Shown piece by piece: positions 12,641 through 35,167 of a DNA stretch of 64,000 nucleotides. Position numbers and translations under genes: made by a program. This DNA comes from Cellulophaga sp. HaHa_2_95. Lineage in GTDB: Bacteria; Bacteroidota; Bacteroidia; Flavobacteriales; Flavobacteriaceae. How positions within the stretch are numbered: position 1 is the stretch's first letter; each line of letters starts with the position of its first letter. The DNA lies in assembly GCF_019278565.1 (NCBI RefSeq), contig NZ_CP058988.1:558001-622000 (forward strand). Reading direction: 5' to 3'. The notes beneath the pieces were generated by a model that was not told the origin of the DNA, made no database searches, and saw only the letters and a list, made by a program, of their open reading frames with translations.

Positions 12641-12767
12641 ACGTACGTCTTTATCATGTTACGAAACAAAATTACGTATAATTACGTATATTTTAGGTAA
12701 TTTTATAAAAATAAATACGTAGTTTTGTTGTCATATTAATAATTCTACACCTTAAAAAATAGAAATT
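12641..12767. promoter_or_regulatory. Divergent nirB/cobA promoter region
   Basis: This 127-bp space drives nirB leftward and cobA rightward. It holds TACGTA at 12673-12678, 12683-12688 and 12716-12721, plus one at 12640-12645 touching the nirB start codon. A perfect minus-strand TAnnTTTG box (TAATTTTG) lies at 12674-12667 and overlaps the paired site. On the plus strand TAGTTTTG at 12720-12727 is perfect and TAATTTTA at 12698-12705 is a near match. Overlap of operator and -10 box suggests repression of nirB or a factor that competes with polymerase, but this is inference. Confidence 0.6.
12673..12688. promoter_or_regulatory. Candidate operator TACGTA-TAAT-TACGTA
   Basis: Two perfect TACGTA half sites separated by four bases form a 16-bp dyad typical in size of CRP/FNR-family operators. 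The same arrangement recurs at 13777, 16092 and 28223, all in nitrate-assimilation intergenic regions. Confidence 0.65.
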
Positions 12768-13541
12768 ATGATGTCAAGTAAGAATCCAAAGGTAAGTTTA
12801 GTAGGCGCAGGCCCTGGGAGTAGCGACCTTATTACACGAAGAGGTTTTAAGGTGTTGCAAGAGGCCTCTGTAATTTTATATGATGCTTTAATCAGTAAAG
12901 AATTGCTTGATGAGATTGATAATTCAATCCCTAAAATATACGTAGGCAAACGTTGTGGAGAACATTCTTTTACCCAAGATGATATCAATAGATTAATTGT
13001 GGAAAACGCTTACCAGTATGGTCACGTGGTCCGGTTAAAGGGAGGAGATCCTTTTGTATTTGGTAGAGCGAGCGAGGAAATAGAGTATGTAGAATCTTTC
13101 GGAATACCAGTGACCGTTATCCCGGGAGTAAGTAGTGCTATTTCTGTACCTGCAAGTCAAGGTATTCCTGTGACCCGAAGAGGTATTAGTAGTAGCTTTT
13201 GGGTAATGACCGCCACTAAAAAAGATGGTTCTTTTTCTCAAGATCTGAAATTGGCCGCGCAATCAGCAGCAACCTTAGTTATATTAATGGGGGTGCGAAA
13301 ATTTGACGAAATTGCAGAAGAAATTTCTAAGTATAGAAAGGGCATCACTCCTTTTGCTATTATCCAAAATGGTACTTTGGCCAAAGAGGTGTGTATCACG
13401 GGAACCTTATATGATAGAGCAAAACAATTGGGTCAAATAGATACTTCATTGCCAGGAATCATAGTTATTGGTGATGTAGTGGCAGAGCATCCTTCCTTTT
13501 TCGAAGAAGAGCTACAACGGGTTTTACATTCAACCATATAA
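12768..13541 (+). CDS. cobA: Uroporphyrinogen-III C-methyltransferase (SUMT)
   Basis: SUMT transfers two methyl groups from S-adenosylmethionine to uroporphyrinogen III, giving precorrin-2, the precursor of siroheme. The 257 residues show the family signatures VGAGPGSSDLIT near the N-terminus, RLKGGDPFVFGRASEE near residue 90 and a PGVSSAIS loop. It is the single-domain type without the CysG dehydrogenase/ferrochelatase part, so those steps must be encoded elsewhere. Its position divergent from nirB fits supply of siroheme to nitrite reductase. Start at 12768 (ATGATG; 12771 is equally possible). Confidence 0.95.
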   Translation: MMSSKNPKVSLVGAGPGSSDLITRRGFKVLQEASVILYDALISKELLDEIDNSIPKIYVGKRCGEHSFTQDDINRLIVENAYQYGHVVRLKGGDPFVFGRASEEIEYVESFGIPVTVIPGVSSAISVPASQGIPVTRRGISSSFWVMTATKKDGSFSQDLKLAAQSAATLVILMGVRKFDEIAEEISKYRKGITPFAIIQNGTLAKEVCITGTLYDRAKQLGQIDTSLPGIIVIGDVVAEHPSFFEEELQRVLHSTI

Positions 13542-13851
13542 TCAACCATTTTTTATAGCCGATAAGATCAGTATTTTTGGTTCTGCCTTGATCCAAGTAC
13601 TGGTCTATATATCGGTGAATATCTTCATTTTTAACCACTTGTATAATTTGCAAAGCGATTATTTATGGTGAATATGCTGTTACAGGTTACAATTTTTTTC
13701 TTTTTGATAGAATTTCTACACTAAAATTGACACATTAATAAAAATACGTACATCATTACATGTTTTCATGTATGGGTACGTATAAATACGTATTTATACT
13801 TATTTTTGAAATGTATGCAATATAAGGTTTAACCTTTTTAAAAATAGAGAC
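13542..13851 (+). promoter_or_regulatory. narK upstream region
   Basis: A 310-base space with no convincing gene. It holds a single TACGTA at 13745-13750, the paired operator at 13777-13792 and a perfect Bacteroidota -10 box TATTTTTG at 13801-13808. The -10 box starts 16.5 bases from the operator centre, the same spacing as in the nas promoter. A transcription start near 13814 would leave a leader of about 40 bases before narK. Confidence 0.6.
13777..13792. promoter_or_regulatory. Candidate operator TACGTA-TAAA-TACGTA
   Basis: Second copy of the 16-bp dyad, placed where the -33 promoter element would lie relative to the TATTTTTG box at 13801. Likely binding site of a CRP/FNR-family protein, most simply the one encoded at 15272-16030 in the same operon. 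Confidence 0.65.
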
Positions 13852-15258
13852 ATGAACAATACAACATCAAATAAAGCGACGAAATTAAATTTACGAGATT
13901 TTAAAAGTATCCAAATGAAAACGTTCTGGATCACTTCCTTAGCATTTTTTCTTTGTTTTTTCGCATGGTTTGGTATTGTTCCTTTTATGCCAGATGTAGT
14001 TAAAGATTTAGGCTTGAGTCCGTCTCAAAAATGGAATTCTATTATACTAGCGGTGTCAGGAACAGTGTTTGCCCGTTTAGCTATTGGTAAATTGTGTGAT
14101 AAATATGGGCCAAGATTGTGTTATACCTATTTATTAGTATTTGGTGCTATTCCGGTAATTTTATTAGGATTTGTACAAACACCCTTGCAGTTTTTGGTAT
14201 GTAGGTTATTTATTGGGTTTATTGGAGCATCATTTGTAATTACACAATTTCATACCTCTATTATGTTTGCGCCAAATATTGTGGGTACGGCAAATGCCAC
14301 CTCTGCAGGTTGGGGTAATCTTGGTGGTGGTGCCAATCGTTTAGGGATGCCTTTAATTGCTGCGGCAGTGGTGAGTTTTGGTATAGCAGATGAAATAGCT
14401 TGGCGTTATTCTATGGTTATTGCTGGAATATTGTGTTTGGCAATGGGCTTAGTGTATTACTTCTTTACAAAAGATACACCGGAAGGAAATTTTGCAGAGT
14501 TAAAAGAACGCGGCGAAATGCCAGTCTTCAAAAAAGATGAAGCTTCATTTGCTAGTGTATTAAAAGATTACAGAGTTTGGATTTTATTCTTCGTGTATGC
14601 GGCTAGTTTTGGTATTGAGCTAACGGTATATGGTACTATGGATGACTACCTTCAAAATAGATTTGGTTTGGATAGAACATTTGCAGGAAATCTAGTGTTG
14701 TCTTTTGCTTTAATGAATATTTTTGCACGTACACTTGGAGGGTATTTTGGAGATAAATTTGGGAACAGTAAAGGCTTACGAGGTCGTGTTATTTTCTTAG
14801 CTGTTATTCTAGCGGCAGAAGGGGTAATGTTATCGTTCTTTTCTATGACGACGAGTCTTGCTGTAGGAATGATTTTTCTAATAGCTTTTAGTTTAACAGT
14901 ACAAATGGCAGAAGGAGCTACCTTTTCTGTTGTGCCATTCATCAATAAAAAAGCGATTGGTTCTATATCTGGTATTGTAGGTGCAGGAGGTAATGTAGGA
15001 GCTTTTCTTGCCGCTTTATTATTAAAATCAAAATCTGCCGTAGCAGAGAGTGCAGCTATTTCTTCGAATAAAGGCTTAGGGGAAGAGGCTATTAAAACGG
15101 CACAAACCATCGCTTCCGCTTCTGCGGTATCAGCAGGATATTTTGTGATTGGTGGATGTATCTTAGTGGCAGCATTATTGTCTTTAGCCATTAAATTTGC
15201 CAGTTCGGAAGAGGCGGTTCCTTCCGAAGAATTAAATATACAATTAGCAGATAAATAA
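13852..15258 (+). CDS. narK: NarK/NasA-type nitrate/nitrite transporter (MFS, NNP family)
   Basis: A 12-helix major facilitator transporter of 468 residues. The NNP nitrate signature is seen as SAGWGNLGGGANR in helix 5, with FCDK-type loop residues KLCDKYGPR between helices 2 and 3 and a conserved Arg in each half. Such proteins import nitrate (proton symport) and may export nitrite. The first 20 residues are hydrophilic, and an internal Met at residue 22 (MKTFW) begins the membrane domain, but the ATG at 13852 is close to the regulatory sites and is kept. It is followed 13 bases later by the FNR-type regulator. Confidence 0.93.
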   Translation: MNNTTSNKATKLNLRDFKSIQMKTFWITSLAFFLCFFAWFGIVPFMPDVVKDLGLSPSQKWNSIILAVSGTVFARLAIGKLCDKYGPRLCYTYLLVFGAIPVILLGFVQTPLQFLVCRLFIGFIGASFVITQFHTSIMFAPNIVGTANATSAGWGNLGGGANRLGMPLIAAAVVSFGIADEIAWRYSMVIAGILCLAMGLVYYFFTKDTPEGNFAELKERGEMPVFKKDEASFASVLKDYRVWILFFVYAASFGIELTVYGTMDDYLQNRFGLDRTFAGNLVLSFALMNIFARTLGGYFGDKFGNSKGLRGRVIFLAVILAAEGVMLSFFSMTTSLAVGMIFLIAFSLTVQMAEGATFSVVPFINKKAIGSISGIVGAGGNVGAFLAALLLKSKSAVAESAAISSNKGLGEEAIKTAQTIASASAVSAGYFVIGGCILVAALLSLAIKFASSEEAVPSEELNIQLADK

Positions 15259-15271
15259 TAGGGTAAATATA

Positions 15272-16030
15272 TTGAATACGCTAACGGTACATACTAGGAA
15301 TGCAAGAACAAAAAGATTCAATGCTTTAAATACTGCTTGCGAAAGTTGTGTGAATGCTAATTGTCTAATAAATAGAAATGTGTCTTCAGAGCAGGTGGCG
15401 CTATTTTCTAATGAAAAAACAGAGATCACTTGCAAAAAAGGGCAGCAATTTATCATCGAAGGTGCACCTGTAAATGGACTCTTCTTTATATTGAAAGGAA
15501 AGGTTAAGGTTTACAGGACAGGAATACATGGCAAAGAACAAATTGTTCGTTTTGCTAAAGAAGGAGAAATTATTGGGCATCGTGGTTTTGGTACTGAGGA
15601 GTACTATTCTATTGGGGCTATAGCGCTAGAACATACCGAACTTTGTTATTTCTCTAAAGATACATTACAAAAAGCGCTAAAGAGTAATGCCAGTTTTGCT
15701 TATGATTTGATGCTTTTTTATGCCGATGAATTGAATAGAAGTGAAGCAAAAGTTAAATCTATATCTCAAATGACGGTAAGAGAACGCGTGGTAGATACCT
15801 TATTATATATCAACAGAAAATTTAAAGATAAAAATGGATTCTTGAATCTTGCCTTAAGTAGGAGAGAATATGCAGATTATGCAGGCACAACAGAAGAACA
15901 GGTCATTCGAATATTTTCAAGTTTAAAAAAGGAAAACCTTATCCATACAAAAGGAAAAAAAGTTGGCATTATAAACGTAGATCTACTCAAAAGAGAAATC
16001 TCGGAGCATAACTTTTATTTAGATTTATAA
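15272..16030 (+). CDS. CRP/FNR-family regulator with four FNR-like cysteines
   Basis: A 252-residue CRP/FNR protein. A cyclic-nucleotide-like beta barrel spans about 45-140, then the dimer helix, then a winged HTH (about 185-240) with recognition helix TTEEQVIRIFSSLK that keeps the E-x3-R contacts of CRP and FNR. Cysteines at 23, 26 and 31 and a fourth at 125 (ALEHTELCYF) match the positions of the four [4Fe-4S] ligands of E. coli FNR (three N-terminal, one near 122). It may therefore sense oxygen or NO. The start must be the TTG at 15272, because no in-frame ATG occurs before the core. Position after narK and near the TACGTA dyads makes it the likely cluster regulator. Confidence 0.88.
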   Translation: MNTLTVHTRNARTKRFNALNTACESCVNANCLINRNVSSEQVALFSNEKTEITCKKGQQFIIEGAPVNGLFFILKGKVKVYRTGIHGKEQIVRFAKEGEIIGHRGFGTEEYYSIGAIALEHTELCYFSKDTLQKALKSNASFAYDLMLFYADELNRSEAKVKSISQMTVRERVVDTLLYINRKFKDKNGFLNLALSRREYADYAGTTEEQVIRIFSSLKKENLIHTKGKKVGIINVDLLKREISEHNFYLDL

Positions 16031-16082
16031 CCACACATTCTATCTGGTTATTTTAGATCGGTTTAGGATAATAAAAGCACAG

Positions 16083-16124
16083 AACACCAATTACGTAAAG
16101 CTACGTAATTGGTGTTTTTGTTTT
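16083..16124 (+). terminator. Intrinsic terminator of the regulator gene, containing an operator
   Basis: A perfect 15-bp inverted repeat (left arm 16083-16097, loop AAGC, right arm 16102-16116) is followed by a T-rich tract at 16115-16124. It lies 52 bases after the regulator stop codon and should end narK-fnr transcripts. The inner part of the stem is itself the TACGTA-N4-TACGTA dyad. Confidence 0.75.
16092..16107. promoter_or_regulatory. Candidate operator TACGTA-AAGC-TACGTA inside terminator stem
   Basis: Third copy of the dyad, between the regulator gene and nrtA, about 140 bases upstream of the probable nrtA -10 box. It coincides with the loop-proximal part of the terminator hairpin. 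Confidence 0.55.
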
Positions 16125-16239
16125 AACAACCTCTATGTAAATGATTTATGGTTAAAATATGTTTTATCGCAGGTTTTGTTATGGGATAAAAAGAGGTTTG
16201 CACCTGTGCTATTTCATAAAATTTGAATTTAAGTACTTA

Positions 16240-16270
16240 TATATTTGTCATTATTAAGTATTAGTACGTA
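16240..16270 (+). promoter_or_regulatory. nrtA promoter with single TACGTA
   Basis: A perfect TAnnTTTG box (TATATTTG) is at 16240-16247, preceded by the palindrome AAGTACTT. A lone TACGTA follows at 16265-16270, at or just after the expected transcription start, 22 bases before the nrtA ATG. Confidence 0.55.
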
Positions 16271-16291
16271 GAAAACTATAAATAATCAACT

Positions 16292-17665
16292 ATGAAACAT
16301 GTAATCAAAAAAGTGGCTTTTTCTTTTATGGCAGCTATGCTTCTTTCGGCTTGCGGAAGTAAAGAGAAGAAGGCAAAAGAAACGGCTTCAGAAGAAGTAA
16401 AAGCAAACGTTTTAGAAATAGAAAAACCTCAATTGACCTTTGGTTTTATCAAATTAACAGATATGGCACCTTTAGCAATTGCTAAAGAGAAAGGATTTTT
16501 TGAAGAGGAAGGGCTTTATGTTTCGGTTGAAGCACAATCTAATTGGAAAAATGTTTTAGACCGTGTTATTGACGGGCAATTGGATGGCTCACATATGTTA
16601 GCAGGGCAACCTATTGCTGCAGGAGCTGGTTTCGGTAGGCAAGCAAAATTAGTCACTGCTTTTTCCATGGATTTAAACGGAAATGGAATTACAGTTTCTA
16701 ATGATGTTTGGTCTAAAATGAAACCAAATGTTCCCATTGATGAAAATGGAAAACCTGTTCATCCAATTAAAGCAGATGCATTAAAACCAGTAGTTACAGA
16801 ATATAAAAATAGCGGTAAACCTTTTAAAATGGGAATGGTATTTCCGGTATCTACACATAATTATGAAATACGATATTGGTTAGCAGCAGCAGGTATTCAC
16901 CCAGGAATGTATACCGCAGAAAATGTGCAAGGACAAATAGATGCCGAAGTTTTACTTTCTGTGACACCTCCGCCACAAATGCCGGCTACATTAGAATCAG
17001 GTACTATTTATGGGTATTGTGTAGGCGAGCCATGGAACCAGCAAGCAGTTTTTAAAGGAATTGGAGTGCCTGTTGTCACTAATTATGATATCTGGAAAAA
17101 CAATCCAGAAAAGGTATTTGTGATGACAGAAAAATTTATTGAAGATAATCCAAATACTGCAGTAGCAGTTACAAAAGCTCTTATTAGAGCAGGTAAATGG
17201 TTAGATGATCCTGCAAATAGACCAGAGGCTGTAAAAATATTATCTATGTCTCAATATGTCGGCGCACCAGAAGAGGTCTTGGCAAATTCAATGACAGGAA
17301 CTTTTGAATTTGAAAAAGGAGATAAGCGTTCTATGCCAGACTTTAATGTGTTTTATAAGTATAATGCCACGTATCCTTTTTATTCTGATGGAATTTGGTT
17401 TTTAACGCAAATGCGTAGATGGGGGCAAATTCCTGAGGCAAAACCTGCCGCTTGGTATGAAGAGACTATTAAAGATATCTATAGACCAGATGTATGGAAA
17501 AAAGCTGCCGACTTATTAGTAGCGGAAGGTAAAATACCAGCAACAGATGTGCCAACAACTGATGGGTATAAGCCGGCAACAGCAGATTTTATTGATGGTA
17601 CAACCTATGATGCCAAAGATCCTATAGGATACATTAACAGTTTTGCCATCGGTAACAAAGATTAA
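16292..17665 (+). CDS. nrtA: Nitrate ABC transporter substrate-binding lipoprotein NrtA
   Basis: A periplasm-facing lipoprotein (lipobox in MLLSACGS) of 457 residues in the NrtA/CmpA/SsuA-like binding-protein family. The N-terminal lobe has [21 protein letters not shown] and [13 protein letters not shown], and the second half has [11 protein letters not shown], all typical of nitrate-binding NrtA. It delivers nitrate (possibly nitrite) to NrtBCD encoded immediately downstream. First gene of the nrtABCD-porin operon. Confidence 0.93.
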
Positions 17666-17696
17666 GTAGTGCAATAACCAAGGAAAAGAACAAAAG

Positions 17697-18797
17697 ATGA
17701 AACAAGAAATCACATTGGAAAAAGAAAGCCAAGGCCTCACATTTTTAAAGCCCCTAGCTACACTGTTCAAGGCGAAATTTGAAAAAGATGTTGTATTAAA
17801 GTCTTTCAAGAAAACAGGAATTACACTGGTGTCTATTCTTTTGTTCTTAGGCTTATGGCACCTTGGTTCAAAGGCATTATACAACAAGGAAGCTACTTAT
17901 AAAATAGAGAAAGCTTTGTCAGAACAAGGTCAAGAAGCAGCAGATGCGGAAAAGGCTTGTATAGCATCTGGCGATAGTAGTTGCCAGCCCAATACCTTGC
18001 CTTCTCCAACGCAAGTATGGGCTTCTTTTCAATCCTTAATAGCAGATCATCAACTTATAAAAGGGAAGAAAGAGGCTTTTGCTATGAAAATGGCAGCTAC
18101 CAATGAAAAATTGGTAGCACAAGGTAAAGATGCTATTATTTACACGGGGCGTGCGTCCTTTGTAGATACGGTTCTAACGAGTATTAAAACGGTGTTCGCA
18201 GGCTTTCTGCTAGCGCTAATTATTGCTGTACCTATTGGGATCGTAATTGGTTTGAGTCCGTCATTACGGAGTGCATTCAATTGGTTTATTCAAATATTTA
18301 AGCCGGTATCACCAGTAGTATGGTATTTGCTTGTTTTTATGATTGTAAAAACCTTATATATAGGTGCAAGCTCTGATAATGCCTTTGTAATCTCGTTTAT
18401 TAGTGTTGGTCTTTGTGCCATGTGGGCAACGTTAGTTAACACAGCAATGGGGGTTGCATCAGTAGATAAAGATTATATCAATGTGGCAAAAGTGCTAAAG
18501 CTAGGTACTTTTCAAAAAGTATTCAAAGTAATACTACCCTCATCTCTTCCCTTAATTTTTACAGGATTACGTATTACACTCTCTGTAGCATGGATGGTTT
18601 TAATTGCGATTGAATTATTGGCACAAAGTCCAGGATTAGGATTATTTGTTTGGGAAGAGTTTCAAAATGGCGCCAATGATTCCAACGCCAAAATTATCGT
18701 TGCCATGTTTGTCATCGGGATTATAGGATTTCTTTTAGATAGGTTGATGCTTATGGTACAGCAAATGGTATCATTTAATAAAAACGAAGGAATATAA
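17697..18797 (+). CDS. nrtB: Nitrate ABC transporter permease NrtB
   Basis: Integral membrane permease of the NrtB/SsuC type, 366 residues. One helix lies at about 40-60; then an unusually long polar stretch of about 90 residues with two Cys (about 85 and 93) precedes the binding-protein-dependent transport domain (about 155-355). That domain carries the EAA-like loop around [26 protein letters not shown]. The polar stretch is probably periplasmic and may contact NrtA. It pairs with the two ATPases that follow 20 bases downstream. Confidence 0.92.
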
Positions 18798-18816
18798 CTT
18801 TTCGAATACGAGTCTT

Positions 18817-19662
18817 ATGGCATATTTAGAATTAAAAAATGTTTGCAAAACATACGGTCACGGAAAGGATAGTACTGAGGTGCTTTCTAATATCAATTTA
18901 AAGATTGAAGAGGGAGAATTTGTAGCTATTGTGGGCTTTACTGGAAGTGGAAAGACAACTTTGGTGAACCTAATAAATGGACTCATAAAACCTACCAGTG
19001 GTGAAGTGTTATTTAAAGGAGAGCCAGTAGTAGGTACAAGTCATGATCGTGGGGTGATTTTTCAAAATTACTCATTGCTTCCTTGGTTAACGGTTGCGCA
19101 GAATGTATCCATGGCGGTGAAAGAAGCTTTTCCTAAAGAAAGTAAAAAAGAAATAAAAGATAGGGTTGCTAACTATGTAGAAATGGTGGGTTTATCACAT
19201 GCGATAAATAAAAGACCAAAAGAATTATCTGGAGGTATGCGCCAACGAGTAGCAGTAGCAAGAGCCTTAGCAATGAAACCAGAAATGATTATTATGGATG
19301 AACCCTTGGGCGCCCTTGATGCACTGACTAGAGGAAATTTACAAGATGAAATCCTGAATATTTGGAATCAAGATAAGCGTACGGCACTCTTAATCACGAA
19401 CGACGTTGATGAAGGTATTTATATGGCAGACCGTATCATTCCTTTGAAGCCAGGTCCTAAGGCAACCTTAGGTCCAGAGTTTAAAATAGAAATAGACCGC
19501 CCAAGAGATAAGACAGAGCTTAATGATAATCCTAATTTCATGAAAACGAGAAATGAAATTATCGCCTATTTAATGGCTATAGGAGAAGACCGTAAGTCGG
19601 TTTCAGAAATAGAATACCTACTCCCAGATATAGCTCCAAAAAATTTTGTAGATCAATTTTAA
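18817..19662 (+). CDS. nrtC: Nitrate ABC transporter ATPase (NrtC-like), H-loop His replaced by Asn
   Basis: A 281-residue ABC ATPase: Walker [11 protein letters not shown]-loop FQNYSLLPW, signature [14 protein letters not shown], Walker [13 protein letters not shown]. The switch region reads LITNDVDEG, with Asn where the H-loop His normally sits (codon AAC confirmed). Cyanobacterial NrtC has an extra C-terminal NrtA-like regulatory domain; this one does not. It probably forms a heterodimer with the next ATPase on two NrtB subunits. The lost His suggests one degenerate ATP site. Confidence 0.9.
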
Positions 19663-19672
19663 TAGTAGAACC

Positions 19673-20500
19673 ATGAATTCAGCAACTATAGATACTAAAG
19701 ACGCTTATTTAGAAAATGGGATTTACTACCCTTCAAAAGTAATGTTAGATCTTAAAGACCTAAAAAAGGTGTATCCTACGCCCAAGGGAGATTATGTAGT
19801 TCTTGAAGATTTGAATTTACAAATCATGAAAGAGGAATTTGTGACCATTATTGGGCACTCTGGTTGTGGTAAAACAACCATGCTTTCTATGATTGCCGGT
19901 CTCAACCCTATATCTGGTGGAAATATTTCTGTATTAGGAAATCCTGTAAAAGGTCCTGGTCCAGATCGTGGTGTTATTTTTCAATCACCAAGCTTAATGC
20001 CTTGGATGACAGCGTTACAAAATGTGCTTTTAGGAGTTAATCAAGTGTTTCCACACGCCACAAAAAAACAACGTACAGATATTGCTAAATACTATTTACA
20101 CAAAGTAGGATTAGATGGGGCTTTTAATAAAAAGGCAACAGAACTATCTCAAGGAATGCAACAGCGTGTGGGTATTGCAAGAGCCTTTGCTATTAAGCCT
20201 AAGGTATTGCTGTTAGATGAGCCTTTCGGAATGTTAGATTCTTTAACAAGGGGTGAGCTTCAAGATATTTTGATAGAAATATGGAATAAAGAAAAAATTA
20301 CCGCAGTAATGATTACCCATGATGTAGATGAAGCCATTTTTCTTGCAGATCGTGTTGTGATGATGACCAGTGGTCCCAAAGCCAAGATTGGCGATGTGCT
20401 CAACATCGATTTTGAAAGACCAAGAACTAGAAAATCTGTTTTGGAACATCAAGATTACTACAAATATAGAAAGCATTTAATAGATTTTTTAGAACATTAG
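19673..20500 (+). CDS. nrtD: Nitrate ABC transporter ATPase (NrtD-like)
   Basis: Second ABC ATPase, 275 residues. Walker A is GHSGCGKTT, Q-loop FQSPSLMPW, Walker B LLLDEPFGMLD, and the H-loop His is present in MITHDVDEA. The signature reads LSQGMQQRVGIARA, so the canonical LSGG is altered. The first 28 residues before the nucleotide domain are poorly structured. It lies ten bases after the NrtC-like gene. Its intact Walker/H-loop should pair with the canonical LSGGM signature of the partner, giving one competent site. Confidence 0.92.
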   Translation: MNSATIDTKDAYLENGIYYPSKVMLDLKDLKKVYPTPKGDYVVLEDLNLQIMKEEFVTIIGHSGCGKTTMLSMIAGLNPISGGNISVLGNPVKGPGPDRGVIFQSPSLMPWMTALQNVLLGVNQVFPHATKKQRTDIAKYYLHKVGLDGAFNKKATELSQGMQQRVGIARAFAIKPKVLLLDEPFGMLDSLTRGELQDILIEIWNKEKITAVMITHDVDEAIFLADRVVMMTSGPKAKIGDVLNIDFERPRTRKSVLEHQDYYKYRKHLIDFLEH

Positions 20501-20542
20501 AACAAGTTGAAAATTTAAAATAACACAATCAAATTTCAAATT

Positions 20543-21829
20543 ATGAAAAAGGAACAATATGTACTTTTAGGGCTCTTCTTATTGGCCACACAATTTATAG
20601 CCGCACAATTTACTATAGATGGCGAGTTTAGACCACGAACAGAATACCGTCACGGATTTGGTAGTCCAATAGCGGAAGATGCCGATGCTGGATTTGGAAT
20701 TTCTACTAGAGCACGTGTAAATTTTGGGTATGCAGATGAATCATACAAAGTGTATTTAAGCTTACAGGATGTAATGACATGGGGAGAAAATAGACAGTTA
20801 TTACCTGCCGATGCAAACAATTCTTTTGCCATATTTGAAGCGTGGGGAGAACTAACTTTAGGAGAAGGTTTTTCAACCAAAATAGGGAGACAAACCTTAG
20901 ATTATGATGATCAAAGAATATTGGGTTCTGTAGGTTGGACACAACAAGCACGTAACCACGATGCTGCACTTTTAAAATATAAGAAAGATAAATTTTTATT
21001 GGATGTAGGTTTAGCGTTTAATCAAGATAAAGCAGATTTATCTGGTTTTTCATCAGTAGGTACAGCATATAGCACAACAGGATTCTTTTCTTATAAAACA
21101 ATGCAATATGCGTATTTAAAACAAAGCTGGAATGCATTTTCGGGAAGCTTATTGGTGTTAAATAATGGTTTTCAAGAATATGAAGATGATGCAACTACAC
21201 CAGATGGTACCAGTAGTTTATTAACAATTGGAACCCATTTAGCGTACAAAAAAGGGAAGTTGGGACTAGAGAGCAATATCTTTTTGCAAACAGGAGAAAG
21301 ACAAGGTGAGGTAGATGTAAAGGGGGCTTACTTAGCCAGTCTAGATGCAAGTATAAAGGCTTCTGATAAAATTACCTTAGGTGCTGGAGTAGAAATCATT
21401 AGTGGTAATGATGGTGATGCAGGAGAAACAGGTGCTTTCTTTCCGCTGTACGGAACCAATCATAAGTTTAATGGGTTTATGGATTATTTCTATGTAGGCA
21501 ATCATGCAAACTCAATAGGTTTATTAGATGTGCATGTGAGTGCAAAATTCCAATTAAATGAAACTTCTAGTCTAATGGTAAAAGCGCTCAATTTTAGTGG
21601 CGAACAAGAGCTAGCTAGTGGAGAGAAATCTTTAGGAACGGAAATAGATCTTGTATTTGCAAAGAAATTTAAAGGGTACGGGCTAGCTATTGGTTACTCT
21701 CAAATGTTTGCTAGTGATGGCATGTATGAACTAAAAGGTATTACAGAAGATGCTGCTGCAGGCGGTCAAAACTGGGCGTGGGTAATGTTGACCATTAAAC
21801 CAAAGTTCTTAAATACAGCAACCAAATAA
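20543..21829 (+). CDS. Outer-membrane beta-barrel, alginate-export/porin family
   Basis: A 428-residue protein with a signal peptide ending near AAQ and a beta-barrel of the Alginate_exp type (EFRPRTEYRHG, GIGRQ-like TKIGRQTLDYDDQRILG, C-terminal MLTIKPKF). Members are often annotated as alginate export proteins, but here it follows nrtD by 42 bases and ends the nrt operon. A job as the outer-membrane channel for nitrate is therefore more likely; that is inference from context. It ends before a good intrinsic terminator. Confidence 0.82.
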   Translation: MKKEQYVLLGLFLLATQFIAAQFTIDGEFRPRTEYRHGFGSPIAEDADAGFGISTRARVNFGYADESYKVYLSLQDVMTWGENRQLLPADANNSFAIFEAWGELTLGEGFSTKIGRQTLDYDDQRILGSVGWTQQARNHDAALLKYKKDKFLLDVGLAFNQDKADLSGFSSVGTAYSTTGFFSYKTMQYAYLKQSWNAFSGSLLVLNNGFQEYEDDATTPDGTSSLLTIGTHLAYKKGKLGLESNIFLQTGERQGEVDVKGAYLASLDASIKASDKITLGAGVEIISGNDGDAGETGAFFPLYGTNHKFNGFMDYFYVGNHANSIGLLDVHVSAKFQLNETSSLMVKALNFSGEQELASGEKSLGTEIDLVFAKKFKGYGLAIGYSQMFASDGMYELKGITEDAAAGGQNWAWVMLTIKPKFLNTATK

Positions 21830-21855
21830 AGATAAAGTCACTCTTTCTATACACT

Positions 21856-21897
21856 AACTACTATGATGAAGAATATTTCATTGTGGTAGTTTTTTTA
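21856..21897 (+). terminator. Terminator of the nrtABCD-porin operon
   Basis: Imperfect inverted repeat (AACTAC at 21856 pairing with GTAGTT ending 21891, partly extended inward) followed by seven or more T residues. It marks the end of the nrt operon. Confidence 0.65.
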
Positions 21898-21969
21898 TTT
21901 CAAATTATAAGTAAGAATAATCTTACATAGTTGTACATTTGATTTTTAAACCATTAAATACGCAAGTAT

Positions 21970-23394
21970 ATGAAAACTTATCTCATGCATCGGGTATCGC
22001 TTTTAGTAGTTTCAGTATTCATTTTTAGTAGCTGCACGAATGAAGATGCAGTTAAGTACTATGAAGAAATTGAGTCATCTTCCGAACTTCTTATTTCGGG
22101 CTCCAAAAATGTACCCACTTATTTTTTTGATAATGAAGGTTATTTTAAGCACCATCACACCGCAAAAGGAATAGATGGTTTTATCGAAGGTTTTGAGGAG
22201 GCTTCAAAATCTAGTTATGCTGCCAATGATGTTATCATAGAAAGTTCTGGGAGTTGGAATTTTTCTGATGCATTGATTGGTTCCTTGACAAATGATAGAA
22301 AATATGGTTCTAAATCGGTTAGAATAAGAAATTCAGGACACTTGATTATGAATTTTGATATGACTAGCGGGGTAGAATCTTTGAGTATTCGGCATGCCGC
22401 ATATGGGGCTGACGGCAGCTCTACTTGGCAACTAGTGCTATCTTATGATAGTGGTGTATCATGGTTAACGGTAGGGGATGTGGTGACCACCAATTCCACA
22501 ATTTTAAACACAGTTGTTTATGAATTAAATGAATTAGGGAGTGCGCGCTATGGTATTTTAAAATTATCAGGAGGGTCTAATCGGGTAAATATTGATAATA
22601 TTGAAATGAGCATACCAGACGTTACTGTAGACGCTAGTACTGCTTCAAAAGACAGTAATATTACCTTCGGAAACCCTTCTGATGCCGGACTATTGTCAGA
22701 TAATTACTATTTAGATAACACAGATTACGTCTTGTCTTATAATAACGCAAAAGGAACAGCAAATTGGGTGAGTTGGCACTTAAGTTCTGCTTGGACAGGA
22801 ACTACAGAAAGATGTAATTGTTTTAAGCAAGATACGGCACTGCCCTCTAGTTTTTTTAGAGCTACCACATCAAACTATACCAATACAGGGTTTAATAGAG
22901 GGCATTTATGTCCATCTGCAGATAGAAATGGTGATGAAGATTCGAATGAGAACACTTATTATATGACCAATATAGCGCCCCAATCTCCTAATAATAACCA
23001 AGGAATTTGGGCTAATTTTGAAGACTATTTAAGAGATGTAGCAGCCGATGGTAATGAAATTTATGTAATTGCAGGCGTTGCTGGTGTGGGCGGAACAGGG
23101 GCTAACGGAGCTGCAGATTATATTTATAATAACACTATTACGGTACCCGATACTTTTTGGAAAGTGGTGTTGATATTACCTAATGGCTCAGACGACATTG
23201 CCAGAGTAAGCTCTTCTACGAGAATGATTGCCATTAATGTTCCTAATGATCAAGGAATTAGTAGTGATTGGACGCAGTTTACGACATCTGTAGATGCTAT
23301 AGAAGTTCTTACAGGCTATGATTTATTTGAAAATATACCTAACACTATTGAGGCAGTTATAGAAGCAGTAGTAGATAGTGGTCCTGCGATTTAA
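21970..23394 (+). CDS. Secreted DNA/RNA non-specific endonuclease lipoprotein
   Basis: A 474-residue lipoprotein (lipobox in FIFSSC). Residues about 60-220 form a beta-sandwich-like N-terminal domain, and about 225-460 are a NUC-type betabetaalpha-Me nuclease. The active-site block is FNRGHLCPSADRNG, with the catalytic His present but the usual leading Asp of DRGH replaced by Asn; the metal-binding Asn is likely in NIAPQSPNNNQG. It would degrade extracellular nucleic acid for phosphate and nitrogen. It stands between nitrate operons with its own terminator. Confidence 0.85.
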   Translation: MKTYLMHRVSLLVVSVFIFSSCTNEDAVKYYEEIESSSELLISGSKNVPTYFFDNEGYFKHHHTAKGIDGFIEGFEEASKSSYAANDVIIESSGSWNFSDALIGSLTNDRKYGSKSVRIRNSGHLIMNFDMTSGVESLSIRHAAYGADGSSTWQLVLSYDSGVSWLTVGDVVTTNSTILNTVVYELNELGSARYGILKLSGGSNRVNIDNIEMSIPDVTVDASTASKDSNITFGNPSDAGLLSDNYYLDNTDYVLSYNNAKGTANWVSWHLSSAWTGTTERCNCFKQDTALPSSFFRATTSNYTNTGFNRGHLCPSADRNGDEDSNENTYYMTNIAPQSPNNNQGIWANFEDYLRDVAADGNEIYVIAGVAGVGGTGANGAADYIYNNTITVPDTFWKVVLILPNGSDDIARVSSSTRMIAINVPNDQGISSDWTQFTTSVDAIEVLTGYDLFENIPNTIEAVIEAVVDSGPAI

Positions 23395-23411
23395 TGACAA
23401 AATAGGCAATC

Positions 23412-23451
23412 AAAAACCCTATAGGCATTTTTCAAGAGTATAGGGTTTTTT
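23412..23451 (+). terminator. Terminator after the nuclease gene
   Basis: Twelve-base inverted repeat (23412-23423 and 23439-23450) with A-rich left and T-rich right flank. It separates the nuclease from the response-regulator gene. Confidence 0.75.
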
Positions 23452-23489
23452 GTGTGCTAGCGGGGTTCAAATTTTTCTAAGTATTCAAC

Positions 23490-23512
23490 TACGTATTTTT
23501 AATTTATATTTG
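23490..23512 (+). promoter_or_regulatory. Response-regulator promoter with a TACGTA half site
   Basis: One TACGTA at 23490-23495 precedes a perfect TATATTTG -10 box at 23505-23512, 20 bases before the ATG. Only a weak second half site is visible, so control by the cluster operator is uncertain. Confidence 0.5.
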
Positions 23513-23531
23513 TAAAAATATCATTTAAAAT

Positions 23532-24203
23532 ATGAGCCAGACGATACGAATAGTTTTAGCAGATGACCACTCTTTAGTAAGAGATGGAATTCGTGCTTTG
23601 CTTGAAGAAGAAGAAGATTTAGTGGTTGTTGCGGAGGTTTCAAACGGTAAAGAAGCCATTGATATGGTCAATGAGAAAAAGCCAGATCTTTTAATTATTG
23701 ATATTCGAATGCCTGAAATGAATGGTATAGATGCGGTTGAAATTTTAAATAAGCAAGGTGCTACGACAAAAACAATTATTTTGTCCATGCATGATTCAGA
23801 AGAGTATATTTTAAAATCTGTTAGTGCAGGAGCTAATGGGTATTTACTAAAAGATACAGGAAAGACAGAATTTATTAAAGCAATACGTACAGTGCAACAC
23901 GGAGGTAAGTATTTTAGTGGTGATATTTCTAATGTTTTGGTTAACAACCTTTTGAGTGGGAGTAAGCCTGTTTCTGAGAAACCAAAACACATTAAATCAA
24001 ACGATAATCCATTTGATTTGACAAGTAAAGAACTTCAAATTTTAGAATTGATATTGTCAGGTTTAACGAACAAGCAAATCTCGGAAAAATTGGAGAATAG
24101 TAAACGTACGGTAGAGACACACCGGTTTAATTTAATGCGCAAGATGGATGTTAAAAACCTTATCGACCTATCTAAAAAAGCACAAGAATTTAACCTAGTC
24201 TAA
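23532..24203 (+). CDS. NarL/LuxR-family response regulator
   Basis: A 223-residue regulator: receiver domain (about 4-125) with acidic pocket DDH, phospho-acceptor Asp in LLIIDIRMPEM, conserved Ser/Thr and Lys (YLLKDTG), then a LuxR-type HTH (about 155-218, SKELQILELILSG, TNKQISEKL, KRTVETH). NarL-family regulators pair with HisKA_3 kinases, and the only HisKA_3 kinase in the window is the NarX-like sensor at 7203-9053. It probably regulates nitrate-responsive genes. Encoded alone; convergent with the DUF5995 gene three bases away. Confidence 0.9.
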   Translation: MSQTIRIVLADDHSLVRDGIRALLEEEEDLVVVAEVSNGKEAIDMVNEKKPDLLIIDIRMPEMNGIDAVEILNKQGATTKTIILSMHDSEEYILKSVSAGANGYLLKDTGKTEFIKAIRTVQHGGKYFSGDISNVLVNNLLSGSKPVSEKPKHIKSNDNPFDLTSKELQILELILSGLTNKQISEKLENSKRTVETHRFNLMRKMDVKNLIDLSKKAQEFNLV

Positions 24204-24206
24204 CGA

Positions 24207-24962
24207 CTAATTGCGTTGTAGTTTGGTAATAATTTGACCGACATTTTTTTCTTCAAAAGATCTAATTCCTTTTAATACGTAGCCAATGATTTTGGACTTT
24301 GGGTCTTTTATAAATTTTGCTAATTCTAAAACCAATACATCTATTTTAGTGATAGCCGCAGGTTTTTGGCTTTCGTCAAGGGCCCATAAAAGATTTGTAC
24401 TGTTCCATGATTGTTGTCTGGCCTTCCGCATGCTAAAATCTATCACTTTTTCATCTGTATTTTTTCCTAATAGATCTAACAAAAAGAGCAATGGGGAAAC
24501 ACGACTTAAACGGTCTTGCATTTCACTGGTGATATTAAAAAGGATATCATTTACCCTATTAAAGTCTTTTTCAATAAGCGTTAGCTCTTTTCCTTTCATA
24601 GTAGCTGCCGTTGCAATGCCCAAATCTAGATTTATGTGTGCGTTGATTCCCAACATAATATGTTGCAAAATGGTTAGTTCTTCTGTTGCATTTTCAAAAG
24701 AAAATAACCAAGAAGCACTTACGCTATTTCCTTTAGTATACTCTTGGTAAGCGTCTATATACAAATTGGCAAAAGCAACATCCATCTGTTCTAATTGTGC
24801 ATTGTCTTCAAAACTGCCACGTTCTACTTCTTTTAAAATTTCGGCAGTAGTTCTTCGGTATAAATAAGCAAATAAGCCCAATCGGCTATTTTTAGCAATA
24901 CATTCTTCTATGATGGTATCCAGTACAACTAGTACTCTTTTGATGGTTTTAGGTCGGTTCAT
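24207..24962 (-). CDS. DUF5995 family protein
   Basis: A 251-residue all-helical cytoplasmic protein. The strongest block is QHIMLGINAHINLDLG near residue 105, with two His that may bind a metal, and an earlier FANLYIDAYQEY segment. This matches the DUF5995 family, whose function is unknown. It is the only gene on this strand between 13 and 38 kb and is convergent with the response regulator. Confidence 0.75.
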   Translation of the reverse strand: MNRPKTIKRVLVVLDTIIEECIAKNSRLGLFAYLYRRTTAEILKEVERGSFEDNAQLEQMDVAFANLYIDAYQEYTKGNSVSASWLFSFENATEELTILQHIMLGINAHINLDLGIATAATMKGKELTLIEKDFNRVNDILFNITSEMQDRLSRVSPLLFLLDLLGKNTDEKVIDFSMRKARQQSWNSTNLLWALDESQKPAAITKIDVLVLELAKFIKDPKSKIIGYVLKGIRSFEEKNVGQIITKLQRN

Positions 24963-25079
24963 TAGAGAAATAAAAAAGTTTTACTTCCTAAAAGTACCAT
25001 TTTCTCTCTAGTACCTACCATGTTAGGTGCCATATGCTGCATAATTTTGTCATTAAGTTTTAACATAAAAAATAAACAA

Positions 25080-25829
25080 ATGAAAAAAACGGCATTAATT
25101 GTAGGAGGAAGTAGTGGAATAGGAAAAGCTACAGCCCAAAGATTATTGAAAGAAGGAATAGAAGTGCATATTGTTGGTACCAATGACACGAAACTCAATG
25201 CTTTTAAAAGTGAGGTTTCGGAGAATTTACATTGTCATAAGGTTGATATTACAAATCTTAGTGCGGTAAGTGAGCTAAATAGTATGGTTGATGGATGGGA
25301 AAATTTGGACTATCTCGTAAATGCTTCTGGGATTTTTGGACCTAAACCATTCTTGGATCATACGGTAGAAGATTATGATTCTTATCAAGATTTAAATCGT
25401 GGTTTCTTTTTTATTACACAAAATGCGGCCAAAAAAATGGCAGCTACAGGTGGTGGAGCCATTGTAAATGTAGGTTCTATGTGGGCGAAACAAGCCGTAA
25501 AAGCAACACCTTCTTCGGCGTATTCTATGCAAAAAGCAGGATTGCATTCTCTTACACAACATTTAGCTATGGAGCTTGCGGATCATAAAATTCGTGTCAA
25601 TGCAGTTTCTCCTGCTCTTGTAGAAACACCAGTGTATGATAGTGTTTTTGGTGATGCAGAAAAAGCACACGAAGCTTTAAAGGGGTTTAATGCTTTTCAT
25701 CCAATTGGAAGAATAGGGCAGCCGGAAGATGTGGCGGAAACCATACATTTTTTATTGTCAGATAAAGCCTCATGGGTAACAGGCGCCATTTGGGATACTG
25801 ACGGTGGTGTAATGTCTGGGAGAAATTAA
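25080..25829 (+). CDS. Short-chain dehydrogenase/reductase (SDR)
   Basis: A classical SDR of about 249 residues. The Rossmann glycine motif is GGSSGIGKA, the catalytic Ser is in NVGSMW, and the Y-x3-K is in SAYSMQKAG. It oxidises or reduces an unknown alcohol/ketone with NAD(P)(H). The ATG at 25080 fits the family; an upstream ATG at 25020 would add a hydrophobic 20-residue leader not expected in SDRs. An intrinsic terminator follows, so the next genes may have their own promoter. Confidence 0.87.
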
Positions 25830-25847
25830 ACTCAGTTTTTAATAAAG

Positions 25848-25878
25848 GATAAGAGGGGTGTCTTATCTTATTTTTTTT
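25848..25878 (+). terminator. Terminator after the SDR gene
   Basis: Seven-base stem GATAAGA/TCTTATC (25848-25854 and 25861-25867) with loop GGGGTG and an eight-T tail. Confidence 0.6.
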
Positions 25879-25901
25879 AATCTTTATAAAATATAAGTAA
25901 T

Positions 25902-26207
25902 ATGTATACAATGGATAATTTAAAGCACTTAGGTGCTTTGGAAAAAAATGCGAGTCCGGCTATGAAAGCATTTCAAGCTTTTGACAAAGAAGCCCTGAGT
26001 GATGGCGTAATTCCTAAAAAATACAAAGAATTAATTGCGATTGCGGTAGCATTAACAACGCAATGCCCTTATTGTTTAGAAATACATAAAGAGCAAGCTG
26101 TTAAAGCGGGTGTTACGCAAGAAGAATTAGCAGAAGTAACCTTCATCGCAGCAGCCTTAAGGGCAGGAGCGGCCGTGGTTTATGGAACTCATTTAATGAA
26201 TAAGTAA
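25902..26207 (+). CDS. Carboxymuconolactone decarboxylase/AhpD-like protein
   Basis: A 101-residue small helical protein of the CMD/AhpD family. The redox-active CxxC lies in CPYCLEIHKEQA, with the His/Glu proton relay visible, which suggests peroxidase-type or disulfide chemistry rather than lactone decarboxylation. Its stop codon overlaps the start of the flavin oxidase gene by one base, so the two are translationally coupled. Confidence 0.85.
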   Translation: MYTMDNLKHLGALEKNASPAMKAFQAFDKEALSDGVIPKKYKELIAIAVALTTQCPYCLEIHKEQAVKAGVTQEELAEVTFIAAALRAGAAVVYGTHLMNK

Positions 26208-27250
26208 TGATACAAACTACCTCTAAATATTTAATAATAGGCGCAGGCCTTTCAGGATTAACAACAGCATATGAGTTGTACAAAGCGGGCGAAACAGATG
26301 TTATTGTTTTAGAGGCTAGAGCAACCATTGGAGGTAGGATTTTGACCACTAATCAGATCGATTTTGGAGCTACTTGGTTTCAAAATCACCACACACATGT
26401 GGCTGGTTTATTGAGGGAATTGAAGATTGAAAAATTCCCTCAATATTCTAAAGGGCAGAGTGTTTTGGTGTATAGTACTATGGCTCCTGAGCATTATTTT
26501 CAGAATGATCCAAATGCGCCATCTGCACATAGAATTGAAGGAGGGTCCTCTGCTGTAATTAAAAAATTAGCAGCTCCTTTCTCGAATCAAATACATACAG
26601 ATACCACAGTGCTCTCGATAGAAGATCTCGGAGACTGTATAAAAGTAGTGACCAATAAGGAGACGTATAGCGCACAAAAAGTAGTGAGTACCATTCCACC
26701 ACGAATTACAACACGGATAGATTTTTCACCAGCATTGCCCAACAATGTTACTGAGGTGATGAAAAAAACACATACCTGGATGAGTAATGCTATAAAGGTT
26801 GGTTTAAAGTTCAAACAGCCTTTTTGGAAAGCTAGAAATTTATCAGGAACTGTTATAGGGCAAGTGGGTGCTGTGACTGAATTGTATGATCATACCAATC
26901 ATGATGAAACTGAATTTGGTTTAATGGGCTTTGTAAATGAAGCACTAAGAGATTTGACTCCTGAGGAACGCCAAGCAAAAATTCTTGCGTATCTTACTAA
27001 ATATTTAGGCGAAGAAATTATGGAGTACACCTCCTATATTGAAAAGGATTGGTCTCAAGATAAAAACACTTCCTGTAATACCATTAAATCTATTTATATG
27101 AGTCCGGCGTATGGAAACCCTATTTTTGCCGACTTCTATATGAATGGGAAGCTGTTGTTTTCTGGGGCAGAAACATCGCCCCTGCACGGAGGTTATATGG
27201 ATGGGGCTATCTATAGTGGAAAATTAGCGGCCGAAAAATTAAAGCATTAG
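26207..27250 (+). CDS. FAD-dependent amine oxidase family protein
   Basis: A 347-residue flavin monoamine-oxidase-like protein. The N-terminal dinucleotide motif is IIGAGLSGLTTAYEL, with IVLEARATIGGRI after it, and the C-terminal FAD contact is FSGAETSPLHGGYMDGA. It is shorter than typical amine oxidases (about 450 residues). The substrate is unknown. It overlaps both neighbours by one base, so AhpD, oxidase and AraC regulator form a tightly coupled unit. Confidence 0.85.
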   Translation: MIQTTSKYLIIGAGLSGLTTAYELYKAGETDVIVLEARATIGGRILTTNQIDFGATWFQNHHTHVAGLLRELKIEKFPQYSKGQSVLVYSTMAPEHYFQNDPNAPSAHRIEGGSSAVIKKLAAPFSNQIHTDTTVLSIEDLGDCIKVVTNKETYSAQKVVSTIPPRITTRIDFSPALPNNVTEVMKKTHTWMSNAIKVGLKFKQPFWKARNLSGTVIGQVGAVTELYDHTNHDETEFGLMGFVNEALRDLTPEERQAKILAYLTKYLGEEIMEYTSYIEKDWSQDKNTSCNTIKSIYMSPAYGNPIFADFYMNGKLLFSGAETSPLHGGYMDGAIYSGKLAAEKLKH

Positions 27251-28125
27251 TGAAAGATTCTCAAAAAATAGCGCAATATCACCTACATAAAGCGCACCCT
27301 AATAAGTTGCAGTTTCAATTGCATGACCTAAAAAGTTACCGGAAAAAAAATCCAAAAAAAGCAGCCGTACCACATTCACATAGTTATTATCAATTATTGT
27401 GGTTTTTTAATACAGGAGGTATACATACAGTAGATTTCAATTCGTATGAAATTAAAGAAAACATGGTGCTTTTTACGAATAAAGATCAGATTCATTTTTT
27501 TGATGAGAACCTAGAAGTAGAAGGATGGTTAATTCATTTTAACGAGAGTTTTTTTATGCATTCAGATGTTGATATGTTCTTGAAATATAACATTTTCAAT
27601 ATCGAGCAAAACCCTTGCTATTTATTGGATCGTAATACGGTAAAAATTGCAACGCATCATATAGAATTAATAGCAAAAGAATTGCCCAATAAACTAAGTT
27701 TTGGTCATGAAGATATGATTCGTTTTTTACTTAAATCGCTCTTAATAACCATGGAGCGTATTCATTATTCAGATAGTAGTAGAAAGCTGCAAATAAATAA
27801 CCATTATGAGCGCCAGTTTTTTGCATTCAAAGACCTTTTAGAACTTCATTATAGAGAGGGGCTCGCGATAAAAGATTATGCTAATTTGCTAAATACTTCA
27901 GCTAAAACATTAACCACCATTACTAAAAGTGTGGTAGGTAAAGCACCATCAGAGTTGGTCAAAGAACGAATAGTCTTGGAGGCTAAACGCTTATTAAAAT
28001 TTACAAGCCTACCTATAAATGAAGTAGCATTTCGTTTAGGTTTTGAAGACGACTCTTATTTTATTAAATATTTTAAAAGAACGATAGGCATGCCTCCAAA
28101 GGCCTATCGTAGCACTTTGTTATAG
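27250..28125 (+). CDS. AraC-family transcriptional regulator
   Basis: A 291-residue AraC/XylS regulator: an N-terminal cupin-like sensor part (HSHSYYQLLWFFNTGG) and a C-terminal double HTH (about 200-290) with NEVAFRLGFEDDSYFIKYFKR and GMPPKAYR. It starts at a GTG that overlaps the oxidase stop codon by one base. Likely local regulator of the SDR/AhpD/oxidase genes rather than of nitrate genes; that is inference. Confidence 0.88.
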   Translation: MKDSQKIAQYHLHKAHPNKLQFQLHDLKSYRKKNPKKAAVPHSHSYYQLLWFFNTGGIHTVDFNSYEIKENMVLFTNKDQIHFFDENLEVEGWLIHFNESFFMHSDVDMFLKYNIFNIEQNPCYLLDRNTVKIATHHIELIAKELPNKLSFGHEDMIRFLLKSLLITMERIHYSDSSRKLQINNHYERQFFAFKDLLELHYREGLAIKDYANLLNTSAKTLTTITKSVVGKAPSELVKERIVLEAKRLLKFTSLPINEVAFRLGFEDDSYFIKYFKRTIGMPPKAYRSTLL

Positions 28126-28222
28126 CCTCATTACTTACTTTTCTGAGCGTAAATCTGTCTTTTTTATAGTTGTTAATTATTGATATATCAAAACCTTAGG
28201 CTGATTATTATTAAATCAATAC

Positions 28223-28238
28223 TACGTATTTATACGTA
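28223..28238. promoter_or_regulatory. Candidate operator TACGTA-TTTA-TACGTA (nas promoter)
   Basis: Fourth copy of the dyad. A TAnnTTTG-like box (TACCTTTC) begins at 28247, 16.5 bases from the dyad centre, matching the narK arrangement. An alternative box TAATTATG is at 28260. Both favour a start codon downstream of about 28270. Confidence 0.65.
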
Positions 28239-33466: not shown

Positions 33467-33826
33467 ATGTCAACAAATAGTAAGCCGGTAATAGATTTAA
33501 ACAATAAAGAAACGCAAGCAGGTTCAAAAATCGATTTAATTAAGAATCTTATTTTTGGCGATGATATTCAGGCGTATGACTCTGAATTTGAGGCGCTTAA
33601 AAAAGACATTCTTGAGAAGAAGAGAATTTTAGAGGAGCTTGTTGAAGACGTAAGAACAGAACTTAATACAGCTCTAGATTCTGTAGCTACAGACGTTAAT
33701 ATTAGAGTAACGGAGTTAGAAGAAAAATTAGAAGACAAGATTGAAACTCTAGATGCTGAAAAGCTTGATGGGAAGACTTTGGGTAGTATTTTAATCGAAT
33801 TAGGTGAAAAAGTAAGCAAAAAGTAA
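33467..33826 (+). CDS. Small coiled-coil protein of the GTPase cassette
   Basis: A 119-residue acidic helical protein with no known domain. Residues about 20-45 carry a segment (KIDLIKNLIFGDD) that resembles the N-terminus of the next protein, and about 45-100 is a heptad-rich coiled coil dominated by Glu, Leu and Lys. No signal peptide. It starts the four-gene unit that contains a Ras-like GTPase and a hybrid kinase, 20 bases before the next gene. A scaffold or adaptor role is inference. Confidence 0.65.
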   Translation: MSTNSKPVIDLNNKETQAGSKIDLIKNLIFGDDIQAYDSEFEALKKDILEKKRILEELVEDVRTELNTALDSVATDVNIRVTELEEKLEDKIETLDAEKLDGKTLGSILIELGEKVSKK

Positions 33827-33845
33827 TTTTTTAAATAAAATTATT

Positions 33846-35166: not shown

Positions 35167-35167
35167 A

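Follow-up and report, generated by a model that had tools for sequence, protein, structure and literature searches.

Genes for nitrate assimilation occupy part of a 64,000-nucleotide stretch of Cellulophaga sp. HaHa_2_95 (contig NZ_CP058988.1, positions 558,001 to 622,000; hereafter the window), where nirB and a cobA-type gene are transcribed divergently and are accompanied by narK-like, nrtABCD-like and nas genes as well as by genes for a histidine kinase, a response regulator and a CRP/FNR-family protein (reg, 15272-16030; Table 1). A sequence-only reading of this DNA had listed exact copies of the dyad TACGTA-N4-TACGTA at 12673-12688, 13777-13792, 16092-16107 and 28223-28238, before nirB/cobA, narK, nrtA and nas, had proposed a single nitrate regulon whose operator would be unusual for FNR or CRP, and had pointed to the reg product as its reader. 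Our analysis is sequence-based, drawing on motif, positions, conservation and co-occurrence, and it supports the single regulon and the unusual operator. On balance, the refined pattern TAMGTA-N4-TACKTA would serve as operator for a two-component system that senses nitrate and whose genes, for a NarX-like kinase and a NarL/FixJ-type regulator, belong to the cluster, with the CRP/FNR-family protein as a second regulator.

The operator and its promoters

All four exact copies are present at these coordinates, compared with a mean of 0.01 in dinucleotide shuffles (0 of 100 shuffles reached four), and the window holds no fifth, as the sequence-only reading had said. The whole 4.54-Mb genome has five, the additional copy lying within an open reading frame (ORF) of 1031 amino acids, and a backward control gave none. 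Related sequences were compared in 80 named loci, taken as the top 80 among 161 confirmed relatives ranked by similarity to the CRP/FNR-family protein; all 80 therefore carry reg. A spacing of four bases is prominent there, with 64 exact dyads in 34 of the loci, compared with at most 10 for each of the other spacings from 0 to 24; three control hexamers gave 0 to 3 dyads. Upstream of orthologs in these loci the consensus is TAMGTA-N4-TACKTA, which matches six sites in the window (0.02 expected) and eight in the genome (control, three), six of them in the nitrate cluster and the other two overlapping ORFs. The refined pattern thereby adds two window sites, 13787-13802 in tandem with the narK copy and 16255-16270 before nrtA, each one base off the TACGTA dyad, which the sequence-only reading had overlooked.

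Upstream regions in the named loci were taken only from matches of at least 55% identity beginning no more than 60 residues from the start. The motif precedes nirB in 24/24 of them, narK in 28/29, nrtA in 74/74, nas in 14/23 and reg in 47/80, where shuffles expect 0 to 0.14; it also precedes cobA in 22/22 loci, in an intergenic region common with nirB for which shuffles were not run. Seven of the nine nas loci without the motif have nas directly behind narK, and in many of the reg loci without it reg sits behind narK or another nitrate gene. We also surveyed 149 genomes of one family, the Flavobacteriaceae, from 149 genera, some of which are the same contigs as named loci (e.g. L040, L062 and L082). 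The motif stands before nirB in all 40 nirB-containing genomes (shuffles, 0.015 of 40), with A/T spacers in all 40. Frequent occurrence elsewhere in the genome and absence before orthologous operons had been named as outcomes that would speak against the regulon, and the motif passed on both counts. Its sequence differs from TTGAT-N4-ATCAA, the FNR consensus used in the sequence-only reading.

Raw motif counts per genome average 8.1 with reg, 4.8 with the regulator only and 2.7 with neither, and those of a control motif 3.0, 3.3 and 2.0. We gave these counts little weight, since some regulator-less genomes are rich in another palindrome, TACGTAGTTCTACGTA, and similar sequences. Three such genomes (G114, G142 and G144; loci L120 onward) hold many copies of TACGTAGTTCTACGTA or TACGTAGAACTACGTA, perhaps a repeat family, and G133 (L121, L125, L129 and L133) has 12 matches to the refined pattern, several with A/T spacers, and no ortholog of the regulator or of reg.

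Positions were scaled by the -7 box of Flavobacterium psychrophilum, TAnnTTTG, placed at -12 to -5 in the account of PMC9723704; start sites here are predicted. On this scale the nirB operator covers about -26 to -11. Its start precedes the -7 box by 14 bases in 32 of the 40 nirB genomes and by 25 in four, and the other four have no exact box nearby. Among the named loci, 19 narK and 35 reg cases show the 14-base offset too, and in the window the predicted narK -7 box TATTTTTG (13801) begins 14 bases after the start of the operator at 13787-13802. For nas an exact box at this offset was found in five cases only, the window not among them, and the dyad lies 47 bases upstream of the cobA -7 box. 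At nrtA the operator begins 13 to 18 bases past the start of the -7 box, at about +2 to +7 and mostly at +4. The aligned promoters showed no conserved -33 TTG. The fixed -7 distance had raised the idea of an alternative-sigma promoter element, which was set aside because the nrtA motif lies behind the -7 box and has no TTTG after it.

That perfect copies precede the nitrate promoters is borne out for nirB/cobA, narK and nas, but not for nrtA. The copy at 16092-16107 lies in a hairpin that begins 51 bases past the end of reg and consists of a 17-pair stem followed by a T tract (fold z = -7.8); with its stable stem and T tract it resembles an intrinsic terminator and is probably that of reg. On account of this stem the copy was set aside as the main nrtA operator, for which the closer, imperfect site at 16255-16270 is available. 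A double role, as reg terminator and distal nrtA operator, seems unlikely: exact dyads do occur within 170 bases behind reg in 9/80 loci, but in the window the copy is part of the stem before the T tract, in other loci the terminator-like hairpin at this place lacks TACGTA, and the loop, AAGC, is unlike the A/T spacers of the nirB operators. Immediately behind reg, hairpins or short palindromes with TACGTA pairs are present in L021, L023, L025, L044, L054, L056, L063, L077 and L096, which represent several genera.

Table 1. Genes and predicted regulatory features of the nitrate cluster (window positions).
Feature	Position	Strand	Remarks
Histidine kinase	7203-9053	-	PilJ-type sensor with P-box INVAGRQRAYSQ, PAS, HisKA_3
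nirB, nitrite reductase large subunit	10127-12640	-	
Predicted nirB -7 box TAATTTTG	12667-12674	-	TAnnTTTG consensus; overlaps operator
Operator TACGTATAATTACGTA between nirB (-) and cobA (+)	12673-12688		minus-strand start 14 bases before nirB -7 box
Half-site TACGTAGTTTTG	12716-12727	+	single; overlaps predicted cobA -7 box, 12720-12727
cobA-type uroporphyrinogen-III C-methyltransferase	12768-13541	+	
Upstream narK operator TACGTATAAATACGTA	13777-13792		
Second narK operator TACGTATTTATACTTA	13787-13802		overlaps the 13777 copy
narK-like major facilitator superfamily transporter	13852-15258	+	below NCBIfam NarK cut-off (298.8 of 311.7 bits)
reg, CRP/FNR-family regulator	15272-16030	+	
Intrinsic-terminator-like hairpin behind reg	16081-16118	+	holds exact dyad 16092-16107
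Second element of nrtA promoter, AAAAAGAGGTTT and CTG-N8-CAT (16204-16217)	16188-16217	+	dyad centre about -41.5
Predicted nrtA -7 box TATATTTG	16240-16247	+	exactly 52 bases after second-element start
nrtA operator TAAGTATTAGTACGTA	16255-16270		about +4 to +19
nrtABCD-like ATP-binding cassette transporter genes, four ORFs	16292-20500	+	
Response regulator	23532-24203	+	receiver and GerE domains (NarL/FixJ type)
nas operator TACGTATTTATACGTA	28223-28238		no exact TAnnTTTG within 50 bases in window
nas, assimilatory nitrate reductase fused to NirB-like reductase domain	28294-31824	+	ATG start; listed ORF opens at TTG 28180, and the C-terminal NirB-like domain is its residues 746-1210

Candidate readers of the operator

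Orthologs were scored in the survey at cut-offs of 1e-60 for reg and nrtA, 1e-52 for the response regulator and 1e-150 for nirB, and were found for nrtA in 33 genomes, reg in 31, nirB in 40 and the regulator in 40. The nirB and regulator sets are identical and include every one of the 33 nrtA genomes and of the 31 reg genomes. The regulator matches PF00072 (receiver) and PF00196 (GerE) above cut-off, as expected of the NarL/FixJ type, and its best match among solved structures is NarL. When the DNA-binding domain is taken alone, EsrB and SsrB match best among solved domains and FixJ comes third; the recognition helices of these three are similar to its own. The half-site TAMGTA forms the central part of GTAMGTAG, which is quoted in PMC4999443 together with GTAGTTTCCC as the product of FixJ SELEX (systematic evolution of ligands by exponential enrichment), and is thus of FixJ type. 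According to the relevant statements in PMC13327599, the FixJ-bound fixK promoter of Rhodopseudomonas palustris has GTACGTAG, and unphosphorylated FixJ represses the nif promoters of that organism. At residue 196 the regulator has T where TACGTA predominates in the operators (18/19 long loci, one tie) and V where TAAGTA does (12/15, three ties); we give this covariation little weight because it reflects one switch on the regulator tree, and the Fisher value, which treats loci as independent, is unusable. A literature search for NarL base contacts found nothing useful. We consider it likely, from co-occurrence and half-site type, that this regulator binds the operator.

The P-box of the kinase fits the G-x-x-R motif given in PMC8199190, and P-box and PAS domain together match the description of Bacteroidetes nitrate sensors in that source; no HAMP match was found in Pfam. 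The kinase is thus likely a nitrate sensor. In many relatives the kinase and regulator genes adjoin, and their pairing in this genome, with nitrate as the signal, is likely.

The CRP/FNR-family protein could be the reader instead, with a distant paralog acting where it is missing. Its gene adjoins the nitrate genes, the G-N8-C spacing of the dyad would fit the geometry of a CRP/FNR dimer, and all 31 genomes with an ortholog have the operator before nirB. Nevertheless, we judge this improbable. Nine nirB genomes lack reg at 1e-60 (G001, G010, G021, G027, G105, G113, G124, G139 and G145), and all nine keep the operator before nirB and also near further cluster genes; in G124 all five genome matches of the motif lie within the nitrate cluster. 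The operator therefore does not need reg, and the dyad was rejected as the site of this protein, contrary to the sequence-only reading. For G021, G124, G139 and G145 absence was examined down to 1e-8, where just relatives of 27-32% identity appear; for the other five it was scored at 1e-60 genome-wide, and the 18-19 kb surrounding the regulator held no match. On the regulator tree, where the nine genomes supply 15 of the 65 rows, the presence of reg changes at least eight times. Furthermore, the recognition-helix residues of the protein are invariant in 80/80 orthologs while operators vary between clades, and a different element is a better candidate for its binding site, as described below. 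A regulator encoded outside the cluster is likewise hard to credit. It would be compatible with the co-occurrence data, the survey having covered cluster proteins, CRP/FNR relatives and, in seven genomes, GerE proteins, but the regulator and nirB sets match perfectly and the half-site agrees with the published FixJ site.

A second element at the nrtA promoter

The reg product carries PF00027 and PF13545, with agreeing matches in the PDB, which places it in the CRP/FNR family, and is 96% identical to a protein of Cellulophaga baltica DSM 24729. FNR proper, an iron-sulphur sensor, has four cluster cysteines; in the reg product cysteines C23, C26, C31, C54 and C125 are invariant in 80/80 orthologs, although some of these loci were found with a pattern that holds two of the five. 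The structure model has a mean predicted local distance difference test score of 71 and is weak at the cysteines.

The nrtA promoters of the named loci carry, upstream, AAAAAGAGGTTT and ATG-N8-CAT (CTG in some). Counted in nrtA genomes only where a -7 box lies at offset 52, this second element is found in 29 of 30 genomes with reg (the exception is G111) and in none of three without it; the former count is not independent of the matrix training set owing to shared contigs, whereas the latter is. The weakest element counted, in G097, scores 10.4 compared with 12.8 for the best shuffle. Across the 80 loci, 99 matches have a -7 box exactly 52 bases from their start; an operator lies within 110 bases of 89 of these, and among matches scoring at least 15 no other -7-box offset occurs. 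In ten regions of the nine reg-less genomes four matches were found, none with a -7 box in register. At a score of at least 12 the element is also found at 12 small ORFs resembling a Pfam globin and at six porins. CRP-type activators often sit at about -41.5, and we take the XTG-N8-CAX spacing and this position to be typical of FNR, CRP and NtcA sites. Spacing, position and co-occurrence with reg suggest that the CRP/FNR-family protein probably binds (A/C)TG-N8-CAT.

A small globin-like gene with an nrtA-type promoter stands behind reg in L027, L029, L035, L036, L037, L044, L048, L058, L071, L075, L080 and L084; Pfam was run on the L035 copy only.

Proposed regulation of the cluster

A mechanism is proposed in which a dimer of the response regulator grips a pair of TAMGTA half-sites that lie ten bases apart. 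The bound protein would sit on the -7 box at nirB, at narK and, through one half-site, at cobA, and just behind the predicted start at nrtA, so keeping the promoter shut by blocking polymerase. Nitrate sensed by the kinase would change the regulator and open nirB, cobA, narK and nas, while nrtABCD would additionally need the reg product as an activator. The CRP/FNR-family protein would be a second, dispensable regulator that acts from about -41.5 to activate nrtA and, in relatives, also a globin and a porin. The nrtA promoter would in this way be gated by an activator and a repressor placed in fixed register.

Nitrate-relieved repression is suggested by where the operators lie, across the -7 box or shortly past the predicted start, and on these grounds of position it is somewhat favoured as the mode of action. 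The same regulator could instead activate from the same operator, being phosphorylated in nitrate and recruiting or reshaping polymerase near the -7 box or from the upstream tandem half-sites. The lack of a conserved -33 TTG, the tandem half-sites at narK and the distance of the dyad from the cobA -7 box are all compatible with this, and NarL is classically also an activator. Activation is nonetheless a possibility that we hold to be rather unlikely, since operators overlapping the -7 box, as at nirB, narK and reg, or following the start, as at nrtA and related promoters, are in repressor-type positions.

Several observations weigh against the proposed system, in which the NarL/FixJ-type regulator represses and nitrate relieves. 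NarL is usually described as an activator, from which nitrate-relieved repression departs. The DNA-binding domain of the regulator is closer to EsrB and SsrB than to FixJ, its T/V switch at residue 196 is a single event, and the kinase and regulator genes lie about 14 kb apart in the window. The operator is missing at narK in one of 29 loci (L078) and within 600 bases before nrtA in two of 33 genomes (G002 and G111), and the exact 14-base offset does not hold for eight of the 40 nirB promoters. Finally, for five of the nine reg-less genomes absence depends on the 1e-60 cut-off and on the lack of a match in the cluster region.

The system resembles NarX/NarL of Escherichia coli in the PilJ/P-box sensor region of its kinase and in the receiver and GerE domains of its regulator, but it controls assimilatory genes from sites that sit on the -7 box. 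The NarL operator consists of TACYNMT heptamers in a 7-2-7 arrangement, and the sites here do not fit it: all sites, as our pattern defines them, have G at position 4, and A frequently stands in place of the outer C. The kinase also differs from NarX in having a PAS domain, the Bacteroidetes class being described in PMC8199190 as lacking HAMP and GAF. It shares with the nitrate-sensing kinases of that class the sensor region, P-box, PAS domain and lack of a Pfam HAMP match; the sequence classes described in PMC8199190 come without an operator or regulon. With FixJ, an alpha-proteobacterial oxygen response regulator, the system shares the TAMGTA half-site, a similar recognition helix and the repression precedent of the unphosphorylated protein, but partner kinase, signal and targets are different, and the palindrome here is strict, with a four-base spacer, whereas the published FixJ sites reported in PMC4999443 vary. 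The reg product has the fold and domains of FNR, CRP and NtcA, but the consensus sites TTGAT-N4-ATCAA, TGTGA-N6-TCACA and GTA-N8-TAC match neither the dyad nor the second element.

Among neighbouring genes, a DUF4202 protein (PF13875; 9090-9680, minus strand) is encoded between a nirD-like gene and the kinase gene, and keeps this place in relatives, including all six genomes examined that lack both reg and nrtA. Directly behind nas, 31836-33275 (plus strand) encodes a C-terminal rubredoxin domain and a weak match to a nitrite/sulfite reductase half-domain. Within 33467-36706 (plus strand), a Ras-like small GTPase gene (34672-35166) lies between 33846-34691, whose product has no Pfam match, and a hybrid histidine kinase gene (35168-36706).

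No paper on this regulation in Flavobacteriaceae was found in the open-access literature searched. Tentatively, marine flavobacteria may use a NarX/NarL-like system on a FixJ-type site as a nitrate-relieved repressor at the -7 box, to which a detachable, cysteine-rich CRP/FNR activator may add nrt, globin and porin genes through a composite promoter of fixed register, having come or gone at least eight times with the core operator undisturbed. The role of nitrate-sensing kinases in their hosts and the signalling of the Bacteroidetes class are described as open questions in PMC8199190; such a kinase would here gain a candidate DNA site, a list of targets, and a second regulator with a site of its own.

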